A stretch of 35,822 nt of DNA. Origin: Chitinophagaceae bacterium. Lineage in GTDB: Bacteria; Bacteroidota; Bacteroidia; Chitinophagales; Chitinophagaceae. The position numbers and the translations under genes were made by a program. The stretch is taken from contig CANGFK010000006.1 in the NCBI GenBank assembly GCA_947452925.1, positions 1-35,822 of the forward strand, given 5' to 3'. This document shows, piece by piece, positions 5,315 through 27,430 of this stretch. How positions within the stretch are numbered: the stretch's first letter is position 1; each line of letters begins with the position of its first letter. Below the pieces are notes generated by a model, which saw nothing but the letters and a program-made list of their open reading frames with translations, did not search any database and was not told the origin of the DNA.

Positions 5315-5375
5315 TTATGAGTTATCAGTTATACGTAATAAGTTTTAGGTAATAAGTTATTAGTTTTCATGTAGC

Positions 5376-5410
5376 AAAGTCCCAAATGGTTTATACTGTC
5401 TGGGACTTTT
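5376..5410. terminator. Terminator hairpin AAAGTCCCA ... TGGGACTTT after rny
   Basis: caaagtcccaaatggtttatactgtctgggactttttatt: 9-bp stem plus T run. Confidence 0.85.
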
Positions 5411-6246
5411 TATTTGCGGTAAGCCGTCGTCGGATCTTCCATTATATAAAATGAATTGAAACGTACTGCTTCATCCTTTAGATAAGAAACATTCTTCAGG
5501 CTACGATAAATGCCCCATTTGGGTCTGATAAAAGAATTCCCTTCCCTGAATGTTTTTATATCAGTGGTATTGTACGATAAAAGTGTTTTACCATTACTTA
5601 CCTTTTTTATAACAATAGCGTAACTACCTTTTGCTCCAACCGTAATTACTTCTGTTGCCTCTACCCAAGTACCTAGAAAAGAGCCAAGAGAAACTTCCTG
5701 TAAAATAGAGGTTGGCGCAGTTTTGTCTGCTCGATAGATTAGTTGCAATGTATTGAACCCATTTTTGCCATATCGGGGCGAAAGCGTAAAGAGGGGTTCA
5801 CCTTCATCGCCACCCACACATTTTATCTGGTGAATATGGGTAAAGCTTGGCGAAGGTTGAAAGTCGGGCGACAATCGAAATTTCCACTTATAGGTAATGG
5901 TTTCGCCAGGAGTGCCTTTGAGACTATCTGGTGAAGGCTCATAGGTCTTTATCTCTACCCGTTGTCTATCAAAATTCTCACAGCGGTCATTGTCTATGGC
6001 AGCATGAACCATAAACTCAAATACCCATTGTTTGAGGGTTTCGTCCCACACTTCTCTTATGTGCCTACCAAATTGGGGGTGGTTGGTGCATTGATCAGGG
6101 GTTTCTTCAGCGTGAGCTCCCGGTGCCAATGCACTATCTATTAATTCATAAGTATGTCCTTTACCATTGGCTTCTAGGAGTGTTTGGGCGGAGGAAAATG
6201 CAGGATAAACCAGTATCGAAGTAAGTAAAAGGGCAAGTAATTTCAT
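5410..6246 (-). CDS. Secreted protein, probable concanavalin A-like/polysaccharide lyase-type fold
   Basis: Signal peptide MKLLALLLTSILVYPAFSSAQ; jelly-roll-like pattern RQRVEIKTYEPSPDSLKGTPGETITYKWKFRLSPDF...THIHQIKCVGGDEGEPLFTLSPR...RPKWGIYRSL. Confidence 0.5.
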   Translation of the reverse strand: MKLLALLLTSILVYPAFSSAQTLLEANGKGHTYELIDSALAPGAHAEETPDQCTNHPQFGRHIREVWDETLKQWVFEFMVHAAIDNDRCENFDRQRVEIKTYEPSPDSLKGTPGETITYKWKFRLSPDFQPSPSFTHIHQIKCVGGDEGEPLFTLSPRYGKNGFNTLQLIYRADKTAPTSILQEVSLGSFLGTWVEATEVITVGAKGSYAIVIKKVSNGKTLLSYNTTDIKTFREGNSFIRPKWGIYRSLKNVSYLKDEAVRFNSFYIMEDPTTAYRK

Positions 6247-6327: not shown

Positions 6328-6652
6328 CCAATTGCATAGCTTGAGTAGGTTAATTGATTGGCTCGCAAAGCCAATCAATCATGTTGAGTAAGCCAATTGA
6401 TTATGTGAGTTAGGTTAATTGATTGGCTCGCCAAGCCAATCGATCATGTTGGGTAAGCCAATTGATTATGTGAGTTAGGTTAATCGATTAGCTCGCCAAG
6501 CCAATCGATCATGTTGAATAAGCCAATTGATCATATTGAGCAAGACCATTGATTGTGTCAAGTAGGTTAATTGATTCGCTCTTCAAGCCAATTGATTATG
6601 TTGGGTAAGACCATTGATTGTGTCAGGTAGGTTAATTGATTAACCGCTCAAG
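6328..6652 (+). repeat. Array 1: fifteen 21/22-bp units, 65-bp super-period (22+21+22), core AATTGATT/AATCGATC
   Basis: Units read by eye: CCAATTGCATAGCTTGAGTAGG, TTAATTGATTGGCTCGCAAAG, CCAATCAATCATGTTGAGTAAG, CCAATTGATTATGTGAGTTAGG, TTAATTGATTGGCTCGCCAAG ... ACCATTGATTGTGTCAGGTAGG, TTAATTGATTAACCGCTCAAG; 10x22 + 5x21 = 325 bp. Confidence 0.95.
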
Positions 6653-6791: not shown

Positions 6792-7073
6792 ATGTTTAGA
6801 CTCCTTCTGATAGTAGCAATTGTAGTAACTAGAATAAGTAGTATCCGCGCTCAGGAAAAAAGTAATCTCTCCGTAAATGGACTCAAGGAAGTAGTAGAAG
6901 TGTTTCGGGATGAATGGGGCATCAACCATATCTACGCCAAAAACCAGCACGACCTATTCTTTGCCCAGGGATATTTGGCAGCTAAGGACAGGCTGTTTCA
7001 GTTCGAAATATGGCGCCGTCAGGCAACGGGTACCGTCGCTGAACTATTGGGTGAAAATTTAAAGGCTTATTAG
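6792..7073 (+). pseudogene. Truncated penicillin acylase (Ntn-hydrolase) family N-terminal fragment
   Basis: GLKEVVEVFRDEWGINHIYAKNQHDLFFAQGYLAAKDRLFQFEIWRRQATGTVAELLGENLKAY then stop at 93 aa. Family members are several hundred aa, and no continuation is seen before the next gene. Confidence 0.8.
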
Positions 7074-19415: not shown

Positions 19416-19625
19416 AAACCACGTGAATGACGACATGACTCACCTGAATAACTGAAAGATTCACCTGAATGGCTCCATGATTCACTTGAATGAGGTGAGG
19501 ATTCACCTGAGTCCCGTCTTGATTCAAGTAAGTGACGACAGGATTCACCCGAATAACTGAAAGATTCACTTGGGTGACACCATGATTCGCATGAATCATG
19601 ACGGGACTCAAGTGAATAAATGGCG
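19416..19625. repeat. Array 3: ten consecutive 21-bp units, core GATTCACYTGAAT
   Basis: GACTCACCTGAATAACTGAAA / GATTCACCTGAATGGCTCCAT / GATTCACTTGAATGAGGTGAG / GATTCACCTGAGTCCCGTCTT / GATTCAAGTAAGTGACGACAG / GATTCACCCGAATAACTGAAA / GATTCACTTGGGTGACACCAT / GATTCGCATGAATCATGACGG / GACTCAAGTGAATAAATGGCG, preceded by AAACCACGTGAATGACGACAT; exact 21-bp spacing. Confidence 0.95.
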
Positions 19626-20033: not shown

Positions 20034-20115
20034 GTTATAGGTTATAAGATATGAGTTATAAGTGAAACGATAATTTGCTTCTAAACTCATAACTCATAAT
20101 TCATAACTCATAACT
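20034..20115. repeat. 7-nt-periodic tracts in inverted arrangement in front of dnaE
   Basis: gttatag gttataa gatatga gttataa ... actcata actcata attcata actcata act. Confidence 0.85.
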
Positions 20116-23797: not shown

Positions 23798-23799
23798 TT

Positions 23800-23876
23800 A
23801 GTGATTAGTTATTAGTGTTTAGTGATTAGTTAAAGCAAGGTCTGTACTAATAACTAAACACTAATAACTAATCACT
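23800..23876. terminator. Long 24-bp-arm hairpin made of 7-nt repeats between convergent dnaE and phosphatase genes
   Basis: AGTGATTAGTTATTAGTGTTTAGT (23800-23823) is the perfect reverse complement of ACTAAACACTAATAACTAATCACT (23853-23876); overlaps the stop of the minus-strand gene. Confidence 0.85.
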
Positions 23877-25638: not shown

Positions 25639-25857
25639 AAGCTATACAATTAACCTACTTGACATCATCAATTGGCTTGAAGAGCGAATCAATTAACCTA
25701 CCTGACATAATCAATAGTCTTACTCAGCATGATCAATTGGCTTTATAAGTCAATCAATTAACCTACCTGTCACAATCAATGGTCTTACCCAACATGATCA
25801 ATTGGCATGAAGAGCGAATCAATTAACCTACTTGACATAATCAATGGTCTTACTCAG
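25639..25857 (-). repeat. Array 2: inverted copy of the array 1 family, about 9-10 units of 21/22 bp
   Basis: Reverse complement reads ACCATTGATTATGTCAAGTAGG / TTAATTGATTCGCTCTTCATG / CCAATTGATCATGTTGGGTAAG / ACCATTGATTGTGACAGGTAGG / TTAATTGATTGACTTATAAAG / CCAATTGATCATGCTGAGTAAG / ACTATTGATTATGTCAGGTAGG / TTAATTGATTCGCTCTTCAAG / CCAATTGATGATGTCAAGTAGG. Confidence 0.95.
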
Positions 25858-25935
25858 AGCGAGGCACGAAGCAACCTTATTAACGTGAAAAATGTTTTTT
25901 TTCGACTGCATAAGGCTGCTTCGTGCCTCGCTCTG
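25855..25935. repeat. REPIN-like long hairpin (two inverted REP-like units)
   Basis: CAGAGCGAGGCACGAAGCAaCCTTAT ... ATAAGGcTGCTTCGTGCCTCGCTCTG: 19 perfect bp, one mismatch, then 6 more bp. Confidence 0.85.
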
Positions 25936-26104
25936 ACGGGGATGGGGATGTGAATAGTGGGATATGTCGGAAAAATAAATTTTATTTATACAATTCAGTT
26001 TAGAATACTACACTAATTATGACTATCCCCTTTCTCCTTATCACTTTCACCTCATTCCTTATAACTATTCTTCATAAAATCACTTCCTCCAATACATTTG
26101 CAAC

Positions 26105-27430
26105 ATGACATTGCAGGAAAGAGATTACGAAGTGATATGGCATCCGTTTACACATCAAAAAAACAGACTACCTCCGATACCAATCGTGAAGGGAAAGGGG
26201 ACTTTGCTTTTTGATGAGGTAGGAAACGAATATATAGACGCCATAAGTAGCTGGTGGGTGACGATTCATGGTCATGCACATCCCTATATTGCCGAAAAAC
26301 TGTACAAACAGGCAATGATCCTGGAGCAAGTGATATTTGCTGGTTTCACACACGAGCCCGCCGTGGCATTGGCAGAGCGTTTGTTGCCTATTCTCCCCAA
26401 TAACTTTTCAAAAATATTTTATAGTGACAACGGAAGTACGTCTACAGAGGTTGCCTTGAAGATGTCTTTGCAGTATTGGTGGAATGGAAGGGAAGACAGT
26501 CAACCGTTGACCGAAGAACGCTCAGATAACGGTAAACGGAAAGCGGTTGACGGTAAACGCACCAAGATTTTAGCGTTTAAAGATGCCTATCACGGAGATA
26601 CTTTTGGGGCAATGAGCGTGAGTGACAGAAGTGTGTTTACATTGGCATTTCATGATAAACTCTTTGAAGTATTATTTATTGATACGCCGTCAGAATCAAA
26701 CATTGAGGAACTAAAAAACACCATTAACAGCGAGGGAACGGCAATAGCGGCATTTATTTATGAGCCATTGGTGCAAGGTGCAGGCGGAATGCGGATGTAT
26801 GATGCCCATTGGATGAATGAACTGCTGAAAACGGTGAAACAACACGACATTATTTGTATTGCCGATGAAGTAATGACAGGTTTTGGACGGACAGGAAAGC
26901 TGTTTGCGAGTGAATATATGGAGGAACGTCCCGATATCATCTGCCTTAGCAAGGGACTTACTGGCGGAACGATGGCTTTGGGCGTGACAGCCTGCACGGA
27001 TAGGATTTATCAGGCCTATTTGAGTGATGATAAGCTAAAAACATTCTTTCATGGGCATTCTTTTACGGCAAATCCGTTGGCTTGTACGGCTGCATTGGCT
27101 AGTCTGGACTTATTGATGCTAGAAGATTGCTTCAATCAGATAGAATGGATAACGGAACAAAACATAGCTTTCGCTAAGAAACTTACAACTTACGACTTAC
27201 GACTTACGATTAAGAATATTAGGACATTAGGAACCATCATTGCGTTCGAAATAGCCGAAGGAAAAGACGAATACCTAAATAATATTGCTGGAAACATCAC
27301 TCAAAAGGCATTGGATGAGGGTGTTTATATTCGTCCGCTAGGCAATACGGTTTATATCATGCCGCCCTATTGTATTACGGAAGAAGAGCTGGAAATAGTA
27401 TATGAAGTTATATTGCTGATGCTTAAATAA
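26105..27430 (+). CDS. bioA: Adenosylmethionine-8-amino-7-oxononanoate transaminase, with two repeat-derived in-frame segments
   Basis: IWHPFTHQKNRLPPIPIVKGKGTLLFDEVGNEYIDAISSWWVTIHGHAHPYIAEKL...FYSDNGSTSTEVALKMSLQYW...AYHGDTFGAMSVSDRS...ADEVMTGFGRTGKLFASEY...LSKGLTGGTMALGVT. Confidence 0.96.
   Translation: MTLQERDYEVIWHPFTHQKNRLPPIPIVKGKGTLLFDEVGNEYIDAISSWWVTIHGHAHPYIAEKLYKQAMILEQVIFAGFTHEPAVALAERLLPILPNNFSKIFYSDNGSTSTEVALKMSLQYWWNGREDSQPLTEERSDNGKRKAVDGKRTKILAFKDAYHGDTFGAMSVSDRSVFTLAFHDKLFEVLFIDTPSESNIEELKNTINSEGTAIAAFIYEPLVQGAGGMRMYDAHWMNELLKTVKQHDIICIADEVMTGFGRTGKLFASEYMEERPDIICLSKGLTGGTMALGVTACTDRIYQAYLSDDKLKTFFHGHSFTANPLACTAALASLDLLMLEDCFNQIEWITEQNIAFAKKLTTYDLRLTIKNIRTLGTIIAFEIAEGKDEYLNNIAGNITQKALDEGVYIRPLGNTVYIMPPYCITEEELEIVYEVILLMLK
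26497..26559 (+). repeat. 63-bp 7-nt-periodic tract (nine heptads) inside bioA
   Basis: cagtcaa ccgttga ccgaaga acgctca gataacg gtaaacg gaaagcg gttgacg gtaaacg; outer arms GTCAACCG / CGGTTGAC are complementary. Confidence 0.8.
27181..27208 (+). repeat. Four-unit heptanucleotide tandem repeat inside bioA
   Basis: ACTTACA ACTTACG ACTTACG ACTTACG, read in frame as LTTYDLRLTI. Confidence 0.9.

Follow-up and report, generated by a model that had tools for sequence, protein, structure and literature searches.

An intergenic tract of the Chitinophagaceae contig shown above is built of short tandem units, and it raises the question of what such a structure is: an iteron- or operator-like site, a recombination or nucleoid-binding array, or a repetitive element. 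The window analysed here is the whole stretch of 35,822 nucleotides, and the tract, designated array 1, spans positions 6328..6652 of the plus strand. We hold it about evenly balanced that array 1 belongs to a dispersed family of non-coding intergenic satellite (minisatellite) DNA that expands in place, spreads and homogenises between loci, and has its pitch held by a constraint acting at the DNA level.

Organisation of array 1

Array 1 parses without gaps into 15 units of 22, 21, 22, 22, 21, 22, 22, 21, 22, 22, 22, 21, 22, 22 and 21 bp (325 bp), an exact fit to the count of 15 units that an earlier note made from the letters alone had proposed. Three unit types, A (22 bp, CCAATTGATTATGTTAGGTAGG), B (21 bp, TTAATTGATTGGCTCGCCAAG) and C (22 bp, CCAATCGATCATGTTGGGTAAG), form a 65-bp higher-order repeat and are arranged as A B C A B C A B C C' A B C A B. 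The fixed A-B-C order described in that note recurs through the array with one exception, an extra C-like unit in tenth position (6523..6544, plus strand), which gives rise to lags of 87 and 152 bp. The first unit (6328-6349, CCAATTGCATAGCTTGAGTAGG) and the last (6632-6652) are edge variants, and the left-edge type (CCAATTGCATAGC...) also marks the ends of several other arrays.

Tandem Repeats Finder (TRF) reported a period of 65 bp with 93% matches at 6342-6531 and 91% at 6520-6641, both with 0 indels, and further periods of 22, 87 and 152 bp. Autocorrelation within the array is 0.77 at lag 65, the peak that the earlier note had expected, 0.71 at lag 152, 0.59 at lag 87, 0.52 at lag 22 and 0.48 at lag 43. 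The 7-bp period of STRR-type heptamers is absent from the TRF periods of array 1 (only 22, 65, 87 and 152), and its monomers of 21 or 22 bp (21 within 1 bp), with 0% indels, give it a 21-bp pitch. The earlier description of variants as substituted rather than slipped is borne out: 8 of the 8 arrays of 64/65-bp period examined carry no indels (0%) at 12.9% mismatches.

An imperfect inverted repeat covers unit B and the 5' half of unit C (6350..6382, plus strand), with a stem of about 11 bp and a loop of 5, once per 65 bp. In the 65-bp family 89% of it pairs, the best dyad reaching P=0.007, and no other inverted repeat within each 65 bp of array 1 is significant. The family alignment contains 0 pairs with both sides changed. 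An 11-bp dyad lattice in the 65-bp unit was apparent by eye and failed a monomer-preserving permutation test (P 0.08-0.55).

The left flanking gene (5410..6246, minus strand) codes a protein of 278 amino acids with no Pfam match and its start faces array 1. Between them is a box (TATATTTG) that resembles a promoter of the TAnnTTTG type. The right flanking gene (6792..7073, plus strand) codes the amino terminus of a penicillin amidase, truncated at 93 amino acids. No DNA-binding Pfam match was found in the immediate flanking genes.

Distribution and turnover of the 65-bp family

The genome of array 1 (G000) is a draft of 416 contigs, of which the window contig is C6; other genomes and contigs are designated likewise. 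BLASTN of the array 1 tract against G000 found a second array in the window, array 2, as well as C168, C27 and C39, with short matches in C115 and C63. Against 60 relatives, matches were confined to the same genus (G006, G010 and weakly G002). A 65-bp sequence profile (R1), built from 26 units whose columns average 89% identity, matches 25 times in G000, 27 times in G006 and 13 times in G010, and weakly in G002, G005, G001 and G008. G002:C107 is a clear, diverged 65-bp array (autocorrelation 0.89 at lag 65; units 21/22/22) and G001:C290 has 22/21 units; in G008 no array was seen. The family ranges over G000, two close species and, in a more diverged form, three or four others. R1 had no match outside the genus among 297 genomes of the Chitinophagaceae (104 genera, so 103 others). 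No match for array 1 exists in 72,556 plasmid records, by which a plasmid origin is rejected, and an exact 20-mer had no hit in the public genome collection. The 65-bp autocorrelation peak and the additional copies of the repeat, found both in the genome and in relatives, show that array 1 is not a local expansion; among the options that the earlier note had entertained, that of a repetitive element is borne out and widened to a dispersed family.

Array 2 (25640..25857, minus strand, opposite to array 1) lies between a phoA-like gene (start 25584, minus strand) and a bioA-like gene (26105, plus strand). It is abutted at 25854-25940 by a near-perfect inverted repeat (CAGAGCGAGGCACGAAGCAnCCTTAT ... 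ATAAGGnTGCTTCGTGCCTCGCTCTGA) that resembles a REP-type palindrome. Arrays 1 and 2 are both in divergent gene gaps. The family also occupies convergent gaps (G006:C28, G000:C27 and G006:C47), and a divergent-promoter operator is rejected for the family because of these loci.

Some loci keep their place across species. Array 1 corresponds to G010:C147, with orthologous flanks; G000:C168, G010:C218 and G006:C113 form another orthologous set, and the right flank of G000:C27 corresponds to G006:C28. The left flanking gene of array 1 has its ortholog beside the array of G010:C147, and a 91-amino-acid copy of its amino terminus lies beside the two-unit array of G000:C39. In G010 (L042) there is room between the array and phoA for a full penicillin amidase copy. 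Array 1 is missing from L151, whose RNase Y is the most similar (98% identical), because synteny stops at window position 5416, just past a 7/14-bp repeat.

At the same locus array 1 has 15 units and G010:C147 about 13, and copy number differs too among G000:C168, G010:C218 and G006:C113; these comparisons are between species, each represented by one genome, and copy number would have changed between species. Array 1 units are 88% identical to those of the paralogous C168 and only 81% to those of their own ortholog in G010. The units of G006 C38 and C76 are 92% identical and have ATTAGG variants in common. Such a mismatch between unit sequence and locus orthology points to homogenisation or recent copying between loci. 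Between species the units are 81-89% identical and the flanks 83-85%, the arrays being no better kept than their surroundings. The array of G006:C28 is of the 65-bp type, and its locus maps with the left half to G000:C115, where the 21-bp units number 18 and have a period of about 63 bp on ATCATCGATCC, so that arrays of 65 bp and of 21 bp stand at the same place. Upstream of phoA, G000 has array 2, G005 an unrelated 21-bp array (CTCGAAAGTAAAGTGACGTCA x8) and G012 an array of an 8-mer; no comparable array was found there in G006, G010 and G001, the orthologous phoA genes of G006 and G010 being without array 2. The arrays are intergenic and multi-locus, keep their place across species at some loci, change in copy number and sequence, and share variants between loci of a single species. 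Array 1 has the features of a bacterial intergenic minisatellite, a head-to-tail tandem outside genes whose copy number differs between relatives.

A genus-wide class of arrays with a 21-bp pitch

About 21 bp corresponds to two turns of B-DNA. The 65-bp higher-order repeat consists of three monomers (21+22+22 bp), and its family is a branch of a larger class of arrays with this pitch. Lag spectra were sampled from parts of five genomes of the genus and one locus each from about 74 relatives. Contigs were chosen regardless of arrays (20 of G000 and 10 each of G011, G003, G012 and G005); the G005 sample includes a contig with a weak hit, and the window and five family-bearing contigs were added to that of G000. 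On the sampled contigs the periods of intergenic tandem arrays cluster at 21, 42 and 63 bp. The top six lags of the unsupervised G000 spectrum are 42, 84, 21, 126, 63 and 105, followed by 65. The spectra of G005, G011 and G003 resemble it and that of G012 is weaker, the class being strong in four of the five species sampled. Lags at multiples of 21 (21n) are almost absent from two complete genomes of other genera (G017, G031) and 74 other Chitinophagaceae loci. TRF counted 35 arrays of period 21, 42 or 63 in 484 kb of G000 versus 7 in 1298 kb elsewhere, and few (3 in 169 kb) in G012 of the same genus. L157, whose RNase Y is 83% identical (JASGCX01, labelled Flavobacterium sp.), also has a 42-bp hairpin array, so that the feature may extend to a sister lineage. 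The genus comprises uncultured Chitinophagaceae from metagenome assemblies, whose sources we read from isolate names as mostly lakes and ponds.

The 21n arrays are mostly unrelated to each other in sequence, with some small multi-locus families. An example in the window (19420..19622, no strand assigned) has a 63-bp period, 3.2 copies and a phased TGAAT...ATTCA dyad. With sequences that for the most part change from one location to the next, they cannot all be accounted for by a single sequence-specific protein. Small 21-bp families were seen in G003 C5, C6 and C7 (L115-L117) and in G000 C17 and C18 (L086, L087): AATATGAGACGTCATCTTACC; GTAACACTATCCGGCACGAGA.

Only 8 arrays with a period near multiples of 21 lie inside long reading frames. 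Of the 21n arrays, 25 lie in divergent, 36 in co-directional and 11 in convergent gaps; among all gaps of at least 100 bp, 99 are divergent, 267 co-directional and 75 convergent. Their median distance is 159 bp to gene starts (7.5% within 40 bp) and 95 bp to gene ends (26% within 40 bp); the arrays stay away from gene starts.

Reading 21 as three heptamers is disfavoured, there being no excess at 28 and 35 bp. Arrays of period 7/14 are themselves common in the genome, and short 7- or 14-bp repeats are found near gene ends and starts, for example on both sides of dnaE; those of the window are at 2049-2077, 5327-5360, 20084-20115, 23798-23830 and 27181-27209.

Constraints on unit length and symmetry

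The impression that unit length is constrained is backed by the comparison of indels. Under the same TRF settings, 55% of the 21n arrays are free of indels versus 15% of other arrays of the genus and 18% of those of other genera (p about 1e-9), a contrast whose size is to be read with care since many comparison arrays are short two-copy matches. The mismatch level, about 21%, is equal in 21n and comparison arrays.

Hairpins in phase with the 21-bp monomer were scored against column-permuted controls (p<=0.05). A unit-phased inverted repeat is present in 31 of 80 21n arrays versus 1 of 13 and 1 of 27 control arrays, and is absent from about 60% of the 21n arrays; its commonest geometry is a stem of 7, a loop of 4 and a spacer of 3. 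The clearest example of the class, G000:C14:3221-3792 (L083), has about 27 alternating 21-bp hairpin monomers of two types. There, compensatory changes preserve the pairing: 78.6% of cells are paired versus 52.8% after shuffling, and 36 cells are doubly changed versus 16.9, neither value being attained in any of 500 shuffles. Mismatches are G.T in 74 cases and A.C in 80; this equality bears no sign of an RNA strand and argues for a constraint at the level of DNA rather than RNA.

Two losses were considered as causes of the arrays. That of SbcCD, a nuclease of hairpins and palindromes, is rejected, as G011 has SbcD and many arrays and the 200 kb sampled of G017, which lacks a clear SbcD, contain none; that of MutS2 is rejected by a match in 37 of 37 genomes. 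SbcD scored above the family cut-off in four species of the genus (G007, G008, G009 and G011) and was not found in the other nine.

Origin and maintenance of the arrays

The satellite reading of array 1 would operate as follows. Arrays would gain whole monomers in place through slipped replication or unequal recombination, a growth that would yield higher-order repeats of 42, 63, 65, 84 and 126 bp, and other loci would receive copies of them or undergo conversion with them. The length of 21-22 bp would be kept if a process or a DNA-level contact works solely at full helical-turn spacing. The favoured candidate is that the inverted repeat of a monomer folds back and primes or templates copying during replication. 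Template switching at quasipalindromes, a local mutation process in E. coli (PMC7202029), would keep arms matched mutationally and is not known to generate fixed-pitch arrays. Switching of this kind would also yield the compensated arms of many 21-bp arrays. A cellular function of the arrays would not be required. For array 1 itself fold-back is weakly supported because of its single significant inverted repeat per 65 bp and the lack of compensatory changes.

The same two-turn pitch in arrays of unrelated sequence could also result from a protein lattice, in which a cooperative or polymerising nucleoid-type protein reads shape or dyads every second turn, and spacing and symmetry are selected rather than sequence. 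The few indels despite about 21% mismatches fit with this, as do dyads held through compensatory changes without RNA strand bias. A candidate protein was not found in a search that was not exhaustive, the 65-bp family shows no favoured gene orientation, and arrays appear and vanish at one locus between species. We consider a lattice unlikely and rank fold-back or slippage above it because the arrays are no better conserved than their flanks and come and go. A wider proposition, put forward tentatively, accommodates either process: the genus would keep a class of satellites in which geometry and not sequence is conserved, with two-turn monomers, many of them bearing compensated dyads, generated and maintained by a replication process that is independent of sequence or by a shape-reading lattice, array 1 belonging to its 65-bp branch.

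Dispersed copies would also be expected of mobile elements, their remnants or recombinase sites, and the option of a recombination array finds indirect support in synteny breaks of the draft genomes that coincide with some arrays (C115 and C27 versus G006:C28; C39 after two units). The genomes are fragmented drafts, and such breaks may therefore be assembly faults. Loci were not seen to have an open reading frame, a terminal motif or a flank in common, and the arrays end in degenerate units, which makes this origin improbable. Still more doubtful is that the arrays are transcribed into strings of RNA hairpins acting as 3'-UTR stabilisers, protein sponges or small-RNA clusters. Both strands of array 1 fold better than shuffled versions (z -4.7 and -7.3) and other arrays have hairpin units, but array 2 folds no better than shuffles (z 0.3), an Rfam scan of the window gave zero matches and a tRNA scan nothing, the 65-bp family lacks covariation, G.U-type and A.C-type mismatches are equally common, and arrays stand in every gene orientation; a structured RNA element was rejected for array 1. 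The least probable explanation is an iteron or operator array serving a regulator dedicated to the divergent genes on either side, suggested by the position of arrays 1 and 2 and by the promoter-like box near the left gene, and disfavoured since related arrays occupy divergent, co-directional and convergent gaps, most 21n sequences differ by locus, the flanking genes change from one locus to another, and the orthologous phoA genes of G006 and G010 are without array 2.

Relation to known repeats and significance

The earlier remark that no named family matches array 1 holds for the literature searched: no paper describing arrays with a 21-bp pitch was found among open-licence PubMed Central papers. 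Plasmid iterons and parC/parS-type centromeres are tandem sites at about helical spacing with one sequence, one protein and an adjoining gene; the spacing is alike, but here there are many sequences and no linked DNA-binding gene was seen. Eukaryotic satellite DNA has multi-monomer higher-order repeats, within-species homogenisation and fast sequence turnover with monomer length kept. The arrays of the genus have the same traits but are bacterial, short (0.1-0.6 kb) and spread over many loci, with a two-turn monomer.

With bacterial intergenic minisatellites and VNTRs the arrays share being non-coding, intergenic, tandem, variable in copy number and organised in higher-order repeats. VNTRs have mixed periods, whereas in the genus most of the independent arrays, unrelated in sequence, share a 21-bp pitch and many have phased dyads. 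Intergenic tandem repeats with frequent deletions were described in freshwater Planctomycetota (PMC9426551). STRR heptamers of Cyanobacteria and the TAACTGA heptamer repeats of Beggiatoaceae and some Bacteroidetes (PMC4679880) are likewise lineage-specific, numerous, intergenic direct repeats, and heptamer arrays also occur in the window. Heptamer systems have a 7-bp unit, often of one defined sequence and in many cases placed immediately before start codons, while the arrays of the genus have units of 21-22 bp with sequences particular to each locus and rarely lie within 40 bp of a start.

Tandem repeats of bacteria are usually treated as accidents of individual loci. Here a single genus has scores of arrays, mostly unrelated in sequence, with a 21-bp pitch, few indels and, in many of them, phased dyads, and such arrays are nearly absent elsewhere in the family. 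They may also break up draft assemblies of the bacteria that carry them. It can now be tested whether a helical-pitch constraint, through hairpin replication or an architectural protein, can create and preserve satellite DNA in bacteria.
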